In this document: one piece after another, positions 15,504-34,555 of the stretch | How positions within the stretch are numbered: position 1 is the stretch's first letter | Layout: every line of letters starts with the position of its first letter | From: an archaeon | GTDB taxonomy: Archaea; Thermoproteota; Nitrososphaeria; Nitrososphaerales; Gagatemarchaeaceae | NCBI GenBank assembly: GCA_021827865.1 | Contig: JAKAUC010000009.1 | Coordinates: forward strand, 496,001-560,000 | Reading direction: 5' to 3' | DNA length: 64,000 bases | Position numbers and translations under genes: made by a program | The notes under the pieces: generated by a model | The model's input: only the letters and a program-made list of their open reading frames with translations | Database searches by the model: none | Told to the model about the DNA's origin: nothing

Positions 15504-15611
15504 CGCCCTGGCCGGGATTTTCGTCTCGGCGATTTCGAACCCGGGTCGCTGCCGCTCTGCCGGCTCTGAACCGATGACAGGGCAGCATACTGACCTCTAT
15601 ACGACCAGGGC
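15504..15611 (-). tRNA. tRNA-Asp(GTC) interrupted by two introns (20 nt at 37/38; about 16 nt in T-loop near 59/60)
   Basis: Manual fold: GCCCTGG/CCAGGGC acceptor, CTGCC-CTGTCA[TCGGTTCAGAGCCGGCAGAG]C-GGCAG, CCGGG-TTCGAA[ATCGCCGAGACGAAAA]T-CCCGG, discriminator G, no CCA; mature length 72 nt. TATA-like GCTTAAAACC at 15635-15644. Confidence 0.9.
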
Positions 15612-15862: not shown

Positions 15863-16444
15863 GTGGGGGCCGTGAAACGTTGCGGCTGGTCTTTGCTCGA
15901 CGAGCCGCTGTACCAGGAGTACCACGACAAGGAGTGGGGGGTCCCGCTGCACGACGACCGGCTGCTGTTCGAGTTCCTGGTGCTCGAGGGCGCCCAGGCG
16001 GGCCTCAGCTGGTACACCATACTCAGGAAGCGGGAGAACTACCGGAGGGCATTCGAGGGGTTCGACCCGAAGAGGGTCGCGAAGTACGACCGGCGGAAGG
16101 TCGGCAGGCTGCTGTCGGACCCCGGCATCGTCAGGAACAGGCTGAAGATCAACTCTGCAGTCCAGAACGCCAGGGCGTTCTTGGAGGTCCAGGACGAGTT
16201 CGGTTCGTTCGACGAATACATCTGGAGGTTCGTCGGCGGGAGGCCAAAGACGAACAGGTGGCGGACGCTTAAGGAGATTCCTGCGGTGACCCCCGACGCC
16301 CAGGCATTGAGCAAGGACCTCGTGATCAGGGGTTTCGGGTTCGTGGGACCCACCATCTGCTATGCCCACATGCAGGCCACAGGGATGGTGAACGACCACG
16401 TCACGAGCTGCTTCAGGCACAGGGAGATCGCGGAGCTCTCCTAG
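15863..16444 (+). CDS. tag: DNA-3-methyladenine glycosylase I
   Basis: RCGWSLLDEPLYQEYHDKEWGVPLHDDRLLFEFLVLEGAQAGLSWYTIL...YAHMQATGMVNDHVTSCFRH. GTG start preferred over the ORF-track start, which overlaps the C2HC ORF. Confidence 0.92.
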   Translation: MGAVKRCGWSLLDEPLYQEYHDKEWGVPLHDDRLLFEFLVLEGAQAGLSWYTILRKRENYRRAFEGFDPKRVAKYDRRKVGRLLSDPGIVRNRLKINSAVQNARAFLEVQDEFGSFDEYIWRFVGGRPKTNRWRTLKEIPAVTPDAQALSKDLVIRGFGFVGPTICYAHMQATGMVNDHVTSCFRHREIAELS

Positions 16445-17331
16445 ATCAGGTCCAAGCCCCTGAGGCCGTCGATGACCCTCTTCCCCTCCGTTTTCTCCAG
16501 GGGCAGAAGGGGGCGCCTCGGCAAGCCGCAGTCTACCCCCCTCTCCCTGAGTATCTCATAGTAGGCGGAGATTTGGCCCTGCTTCACCAGGTCCTTGAAC
16601 GCCTGCACCTGCCTCTGTGCCGACAGCGCGGCCGCGTGGTCCCCTCTCCGGTCCGCCGCCAGCATTGACTTGAAGAGCTCAGGGAGCGCGTTCGCCCCCC
16701 CTGAGACCAGGCCGTCGGCGCCTGAGTTGATCGCGAACAATCCGTACTCTTCGGTCCCGTTCATCACCGCGAAGGCATCCGGGACCGCGTCTATGAGGTC
16801 GAGTAGATGGAGGAAGTCCCGTGAAGAGTCCTTGATTCCCGATAGGGTCCCCGCCTTGGCGAGGTCGGCCACCGCCTTCGCCTGGAGGCTGTTCCCTGTG
16901 AACTGGGGTATGTTGTAGGCAAGTACTGGTACATCTACCGCGTCGGCGACCGCCTCGAAGTGCTTCGCCACCGCCCGCTCGCCGGGCTTGTAGTAGTACG
17001 GCGTCAGGGTCGCCACGGCGTAGGCCCCTGCGCCTGCGGCATGCCGCGCCAGCTCGACGGTCGAAGGCGTGTCCGGAGCACCTACCTGGACCACGACGGG
17101 GACTTTCCTGCGACAAGACTCTATGACGGTCTCGGCCACCGTCTTTCTCTCCTCAAGGCTGAGCATGGGTCCGAGGCCCGTGCTCCCGCAGGGGAAGATG
17201 CCTTCGGTCCCCTTCGAGACTTGGAAGCGCACCAGCTTCGCCAGCCGGTCTGCGTCCACGTTCCCGTTGTCGTCGAAGGGAGTCAGGAGCGCTGTGAAGA
17301 GTCCTTTGACCTTGGAGGCTGACCGGGTCAT
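16441..17331 (-). CDS. DapA / N-acetylneuraminate lyase family aldolase
   Basis: GSTGLGPMLSLEER, YYYKPGE, YNIPQFTG, GIKDSS motifs of the DHDPS family. Confidence 0.9.
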   Translation of the reverse strand: MTRSASKVKGLFTALLTPFDDNGNVDADRLAKLVRFQVSKGTEGIFPCGSTGLGPMLSLEERKTVAETVIESCRRKVPVVVQVGAPDTPSTVELARHAAGAGAYAVATLTPYYYKPGERAVAKHFEAVADAVDVPVLAYNIPQFTGNSLQAKAVADLAKAGTLSGIKDSSRDFLHLLDLIDAVPDAFAVMNGTEEYGLFAINSGADGLVSGGANALPELFKSMLAADRRGDHAAALSAQRQVQAFKDLVKQGQISAYYEILRERGVDCGLPRRPLLPLEKTEGKRVIDGLRGLDLI

Positions 17332-33551: not shown

Positions 33552-33659
33552 CGGGCCCGACGGGAATCGAACCCGTTTAGGGGCGTCGGCTGACCCTCGG
33601 GTTAAAAGCCCGATGCTCTACCTGAGTTCTCTCCATTTCTGGAACTAAGCTACGGGCCC
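33552..33659 (-). tRNA. tRNA-Lys(TTT) interrupted by two non-canonical introns (about 19 nt in D-loop; about 15 nt in variable region)
   Basis: Manual fold: GGGCCCG/CGGGCCC acceptor, GCTTAG[TTCCAGAAATGGAGAGAAC]TCAGGTAGAGC D-arm, TCGGG-CTTTTAA-CCCGA anticodon arm, GGGTC[AGCCGACGCCCCTAA]ACGGG-TTCGATT-CCCGT, discriminator G; mature length 74 nt. TATA-like GTAAAATAC about 28 nt upstream. Confidence 0.9.
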
Positions 33660-33688
33660 GCGTCACCCGTCGCAATGCGCCCCGTATT

Positions 33689-34555
33689 TTACTGTGAACC
33701 GCCCTGGGGGAACAGGCTCCGGACCGTCTTCATGGTCTTCCTCTCGGCTGCCTCGTCCCTGTATGGGGTCTCCATTATGATCGGCCTTTCCGCGACCCCC
33801 GGGTAACGGAGGAACTCCCTGATCCCGCTGCGTCCTATGTTCCCATCCCCGATGTTCTCGTGCCTGTCGAGTCTGCTCCCGAGCGCGCCCTTGGAGTCGT
33901 TGAGATGTACGGCCTTGAGCCTCTCGAGCCCGACCACCTCGTCGAAGAGCCCCATGGAGCTCTCCACCGCGGCCTTCGAAGCGAGGTCGAAACCTGACGC
34001 GTACATGTGGCAGGTGTCAAGGCAGACCCCCATTCGGCCATCCTCCTTGACCCTGTCGAGTATCATCTCCAGCTCCTCGAACCTCGCTCCGACGCTGTTC
34101 TTCTGTCCCGCCATGTTCTCCAGCAGTATCGCAGTGTCCCCGCCGCTCCCTGCTATCGCCTCGTTACAGGCCTCGGCTATGTTGGCGACCCCCACCGCCG
34201 TTCCCTTCCCCAGATGGCTCCCCAGGTGGATCACGAGGTAGTCTATCCCCAGTACGTCGCACCGCTTGACCTCCTCGTCGAGGGAGTAGCGGCTGATCTT
34301 CGCGGTCGACCTCTCGGGGGAGGCCAGGTTCGGGAGGTAGGGCATGTGGTCCACGATCTTCCGGAAGCCCGACTCGTTCCTCTTCCCGCGGAAGGCGGTG
34401 ATCGTCTCGTCAGGTATGGGGCTGAACTTCCACTGGTTCGGGTTCCTGGTGAATATCTGGAATGTGCTTGCCCCGATCTCCTTCGCCCGGTCGAAGGCGA
34501 GGTCCATGGATCCCGCAATGGAGACGTGAAGCCCCAGCATGGGCTCTGAGGTCAA
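33689..34555 (-). CDS. nfo: Endonuclease IV (AP endonuclease)
   Basis: GLHVSIAGSMDLAFDRAKEIGASTFQIFTRNPNQW; VCLDTCHMYASGFD; HLNDSKGALGSRLDRHENIGDG. Confidence 0.96.
   Translation of the reverse strand: MTSEPMLGLHVSIAGSMDLAFDRAKEIGASTFQIFTRNPNQWKFSPIPDETITAFRGKRNESGFRKIVDHMPYLPNLASPERSTAKISRYSLDEEVKRCDVLGIDYLVIHLGSHLGKGTAVGVANIAEACNEAIAGSGGDTAILLENMAGQKNSVGARFEELEMILDRVKEDGRMGVCLDTCHMYASGFDLASKAAVESSMGLFDEVVGLERLKAVHLNDSKGALGSRLDRHENIGDGNIGRSGIREFLRYPGVAERPIIMETPYRDEAAERKTMKTVRSLFPQGGSQ

Follow-up and report, generated by a model that had tools for sequence, protein, structure and literature searches.

The closest described counterparts of the tRNA genes considered here come from two archaeal groups. 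For Thaumarchaeota, tRNAscan-SE 2.0 includes a covariance model that was trained on introns of this group, 107 non-canonical introns have been counted (PMC8450103), and genomes that combine multiple non-canonical tRNA introns with a heteromeric (alpha-beta)2 splicing endonuclease (EndA) have already been described (PMC8450103, PMC4090602); the phylum, the motif (bulge-helix-bulge, BHB) and the occurrence of several introns per gene are the same as in the present case. Thermoproteales carry 0.84 introns per tRNA gene, compared with 0.21 in archaea overall (PMC8450103), and their intron sets (Sugahara 2008; Fujishima 2010), as far as these are described in the papers that cite them (PMC4033280, PMC8450103), resemble the present one in having many doubly interrupted genes, scattered positions and an (alpha-beta)2 EndA. 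However, Thermoproteales are hyperthermophiles of another lineage, whereas the hosts studied here are from acidic soils and comparable places, and growth optima of about 33-41 °C have been predicted for related MAGs (PMC10640624). In the open-access literature searched, no paper was found that describes tRNA introns in this non-ammonia-oxidising family or that gives, for Thaumarchaeota, a value close to one intron per tRNA gene, and the word intron is absent from the main text of the Gagatemarchaeaceae genome paper. The kind of intron is known; it is the density in a non-thermophilic family that seems to be new and unreported.

The best protein matches of the organism are Nitrososphaerota MAGs. 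For one exosome protein, SubAcS15-57, SubAcS15-15, AcS4-109 and AcS1-13 (all from the Gagatemarchaeaceae paper) show 70-88% identity, and such matches suggest that the organism belongs to Ca. Subgagatemarchaeum or is close to it. The 1113-nt spans of Rrp41 matches in relatives probably reflect the adjacent Rrp42 paralogue and not an intron.

A preliminary description of this DNA had proposed a tRNA-Lys(TTT) gene with two non-canonical introns and no canonical one; removal of a 19-nt D-loop insert and a 15-nt variable-region insert would leave a 74-nt tRNA with every stem fully paired. A script that combines the tRNA consensus with BHB geometry, and to which no boundaries were supplied, returned exactly these two inserts as its top parse, on the minus strand (the preliminary description had named no strand), and yielded the same fully paired tRNA-Lys(UUU) (GGGCCCGTAGCTTAGTCAGGTAGAGCATCGGGCTTTTAACCCGAGGGTCACGGGTTCGATTCCCGTCGGGCCCG), in which the consensus residues of the D-loop and T-loop are present; the next-best parses leave the variable-region intron unchanged and shift the D-loop intron. 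Specifically, the 108-base gene runs from 33659 to 33552 of the window (i.e. the whole 64-kb stretch of DNA that was analysed) and begins with exon 1 (33645-33659), which is constant in congeners and comprises the 5′ strand of the acceptor stem, positions 8-9, the 5′ strand of the D-stem, A14 and G15. A 19-nt non-canonical D-loop intron follows between nucleotides 15 and 16 (33626-33644; TTCCAGAAATGGAGAGAAC). Exon 2 (33592-33625), delimited by the parse and by the congeners, holds the remaining D-arm, an uninterrupted anticodon arm with the anticodon UUU (TTT in the gene; 33604-33606, from the parse) and GGGTC of the variable region, and is separated by a 15-nt non-canonical variable-region intron (33577-33591; AGCCGACGCCCCTAA) from exon 3 (33552-33576), to which the parse assigns the T-arm, the 3′ strand of the acceptor stem and the discriminator G. 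Upstream, a TATA-like box (TAAAATA, 33685-33691, approximately -32 to -26) is conserved at this distance in almost every homologue.

Standard tools deal poorly with this gene. ARAGORN detected no tRNA anywhere in the window, and the Rfam tRNA model gave the gene 27.7 bits with partial coverage (the cut-off being 29 bits), which is how interrupted genes behave.

For the splicing motifs, a strict BHB was defined as two 3-nt bulges on opposite strands with a 4-bp helix between them and the cut sites inside the bulges, while HBh′ and similar relaxed forms were also accepted. The variable-region intron forms, together with its flanking exons, a full BHB of the strict symmetric type, with an outer helix CCCG:CGGG (4 bp), a central helix AGGG:CCCU (4/4), bulges UC^A and AA^A, and an inner helix of 2-3 bp (GC:GC or longer). 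This structure is the predicted minimum-energy fold of the fragment and is also found within the fold of the whole precursor. Across alleles, the outer helix is paired in 100% and the central helix in 97% of cells, and when the partners are slid as a control, whole-structure pairing drops from 91.5% to 60% or less. Since the outer helix unites the 3′ half of the anticodon stem with the 5′ half of the T-stem, refolding of the precursor would have to follow splicing.

The D-loop intron combines an inner helix UCC(A):(U)GGA and a bulge AG^U with a central helix formed by D-stem positions 11-13 (CUU) and GAG of the intron, G10 being mostly opposite A. It lacks an outer helix, in most species only three of the four central pairs are formed (the divergent L095 and L096 have 4/4), and its geometry fits the relaxed motif rather than the strict one; its cleavage would therefore depend on relaxed specificity. 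The broad-specificity endonuclease that had been suggested for this genome is thus needed for one of the two introns, but not for the other, with its strict motif. The AGTT/AACT pairing that had been proposed to flank the D-loop hairpin had to be given up, as it is lost in L084 and L092-L094, in which the intron begins with A and no compensating change is seen; the pairing of D-stem CUU with intron GAG, plus the inner helix, fits better. A shifted boundary (AGT^...^CAGG) would give the same product here, but across species it would yield mature tRNAs of different sequence; with AG^...^TCAGG the mature tRNA stays the same.

Shuffling the intron letters matched the observed central-plus-inner helix score in 0.15% of cases for the D-loop intron and 0.11% for the variable-region intron. 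Over alleles that are related and hence not independent, the mean helix score was 6.36 for the D-loop (16 alleles; shuffled 2.05, sd 0.29) and 6.35 for the variable region (11 alleles; shuffled 1.83, sd 0.31). Covariation in the motifs is weak, since most pairs are invariant, and this is partly due to one strand being exon. Together with the fixed exons and the empty sites of relatives described below, the helix scores mark both inserts as introns and not noise.

The splicing machinery that such introns would require is encoded in the host genome. Two types of endA gene, which the preliminary description had linked to non-canonical introns, are indeed there: L001 (185 aa) and L002 (181 aa). 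The former, the alpha subunit, aligns over its full length with the EndA of A. pernix (3p1z_B, E=3e-43) and keeps the Tyr, His and Lys triad as well as the loop lysine, K40 aligning with A. pernix K44 and the crenarchaea-specific loop being ungapped; the likeness to the (alpha-beta)2 enzyme of A. pernix (3p1z, 3ajv) thus covers both the catalytic subunit and the specific-loop lysine. The latter lacks the catalytic His and is a divergent structural subunit, with 5x89 and 1a79 as its best PDB matches. RtcB is encoded as well, and catalytic EndA, non-catalytic EndA and RtcB together look like the set expected for (alpha-beta)2 tRNA splicing. For crenarchaeal enzymes of this type, relaxed cutting and the role of the specific loop are established (PMC4033280, PMC12397907). 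Within the order, all genomes with a completeness of 90% or more and a contamination of 5% or less gave an EndA match, and the majority gave two; each of the 30 catalytic subunits that were inspected carries the specific loop with its lysine.

Genome-wide proliferation of short introns, anticipated from the two tRNAs of the window, was evident in a census of the host genome, in which 42 tRNA genes were resolved, 32 of them interrupted (11 twice), with 43 introns of median length 17 nt. Canonical 37/38 introns number 16 (17 with tRNA-Trp, the boundary of which is uncertain), and more than half of the 43 are non-canonical: 11 in the D-loop, 7 in the variable region and the rest in the anticodon stem, D-stem and T-loop. 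The resulting density of about 1.02 introns per tRNA gene, compared with 0.84 in Thermoproteales (PMC8450103), is approximate, because (i) several assignments needed manual adjustment (Trp, Leu-TAA L030, Gly-TCC and the second intron of Lys-CTT), (ii) the loci L035 and L045 are left out of the 42 and (iii) the assembly has an estimated contamination of 7.5%, so that duplicated isotypes may include foreign genes. The census is based on Rfam hits and pattern hits only and is incomplete; a scan of the genome with a short T-arm pattern for missed tRNAs was dropped owing to an excess of chance matches. The second tRNA of the window, tRNA-Asp(GUC) (about 15504-15611, minus strand), is doubly interrupted, as had been claimed for both window tRNAs, with a 37/38 intron (20 nt) and a T-loop intron (16 nt) that both form a full BHB. 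A plain T-arm scan missed it, because its T-loop is interrupted; it came to light when candidate introns were spliced out before the search.

Some loci are more intricate. L046 (G000 C11, near 16375-16505, minus strand), a probable tRNA-Trp(CCA), has a 57-nt anticodon-loop intron with box C/D-like motifs and an uncertain boundary; box C/D motifs are known in archaeal tRNA-Trp introns. The tRNA-like L035 (G000 C16:10469-10593) and L045 (G000 C11:30279-30342), for which a two-to-three-intron parser gave no solution, perhaps contain more introns or are split genes.

In a rough comparison, tRNA hits of at least 55 bits number 10-11 each in three genomes of the same family (G000, G005 and G048), but 19 and 27 in genomes of other families (G031 and G033, respectively). 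The other families of the order thus look less interrupted, and the density probably arose separately from that of Thermoproteales. EndA as the cause of the proliferation is not supported, because it is found order-wide, yet in the other families a larger number of tRNAs score high and look uninterrupted. With two EndA genes in most well-completed genomes of the order and the loop lysine in the 30 alpha subunits inspected, the enzyme permits the introns but does not explain their excess in this family.

The same gene with both inserts is present in 20 genomes of the same genus; MAS4_bin.35, YP1.bin46, REEA66, SubAcS15-15 and AcS4-109 are among the relatives that have it. In an alignment of the 16 distinct sequences, the exon columns are invariant except for one D-loop base (T/C, differing in two genomes), while the insert columns vary in sequence and length, with 16 D-loop and 11 variable-region alleles. 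Invariant exons beside drifting inserts indicate strong purifying selection on the exons. The gene was not found in four congeners (G001, G009, G013 and G042; two of them >90% complete), which may have assembly gaps or more heavily interrupted genes. In three genomes from two genera of the same family (G050, G046 and G052), the D-loop site is empty and joined exactly at AG/YCAGG, and the variable-region intron is retained; in G034, of another family, both sites are empty and an intron lies elsewhere in the gene. Relatives that are naturally uninterrupted join their exons at the places of the predicted excision. In other families of the order (L248 in G035, L247 in G036, L244 in G037 and L242 in G034), the tRNA-Lys(UUU) introns lie in very different places (T-loop, anticodon stem, 37/38 and D-stem), which points to a fast turnover of intron positions in this gene.

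Perfect copies (20-25 nt) of exon 3 occur away from the gene in four genomes (L102 in G022, L103 in G023, L105 in G006 and L252 in G047), ending at or near the junction of the variable-region intron. They resemble the attachment sites of integrated elements. In G022 the copy lies 7.2 kb downstream of the tRNA gene, but visual inspection of the ORFs in the stretch between the copies (L261) revealed no integrase.

Could the inserts be retained, so that the variable region is a long arm of the class II type and the D-loop is simply larger than usual? A retained variable region of 20 nt does parse almost as well (29.17 versus 29.3 before intron terms), but tRNA-Lys is a class I tRNA, the relatives described above lack the D-loop insert (L231, L237, L240) or both (L242), sequence and length of the inserts drift while the exons are fixed, and the BHB involves the flanking exons instead of forming a self-contained arm. 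Retention is therefore highly improbable. Hardly more credible is a decaying pseudogene, with AAA codons read by another tRNA. While the genome has a tRNA-Lys(CUU) (L037) and standard finders miss the UUU gene, an anticodon CUU normally does not read AAA, and a DNA search of the host genome found no second tRNA-Lys(UUU); decay is likewise at odds with the conserved promoter and with exons that stay essentially invariant in 20 genomes where only the inserts drift. The reading to which we assign a probability of roughly 95%, as far as genome comparison can tell, is that of a functional gene for tRNA-Lys(UUU) that carries two introns of the archaeal, protein-spliced type at non-canonical positions, as one instance of a lineage-wide accumulation of short tRNA introns in a family of the Nitrososphaerales, which is probably Gagatemarchaeaceae.

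A separate question is where such introns come from. The 15/16 D-loop introns might be one family that has spread between tRNA genes by transposition, a process that has been proposed for Thermoproteales. An intron at exactly 15/16 is found in no fewer than eight genes, which represent six isotypes (two Met, two Lys, Asn, Gly-TCC, Arg-TCT and Glu-TTC), with a common layout of AG^(A/T), a hairpin and a purine-rich 3′ end. However, the exon strands that these genes have in common (D-stem GCTC/GCTT plus AG) would impose this layout on any bulge-helix motif, no clear sequence is shared beyond the needs of pairing, and 16-39 nt are too short to prove descent, so that spread from a single source is possible but doubtful. 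Equally tentative is the wider proposal that a mesophilic or acid-soil lineage of Nitrososphaerota independently reached an intron density like that of hyperthermophiles, partly because one class of tiny D-loop introns spread at 15/16 to six tRNA isotypes, with the (alpha-beta)2 EndA already long in place.

For the two introns of tRNA-Lys(UUU), processing may be pictured as follows. An archaeal promoter would drive transcription, exon and intron strands of the folding precursor would form the BHB motifs, the heteromeric (alpha-beta)2 endonuclease would cut in the bulges, RtcB would ligate the exons and the spliced RNA would then refold into the 74-nt cloverleaf, presumably in this order.

Generic tRNA finders miss genes interrupted in this way and will report missing tRNAs. 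The gain and loss of single introns can be dated in this family, because it comprises dozens of related species that have, lack or have modified a given intron. The lineage further helps to separate an enzyme that permits introns from one that causes them, since across the order the type of EndA stays the same and the number of introns apparently does not. Finally, the findings suggest that the proliferation of tRNA introns is not tied to hyperthermophiles.
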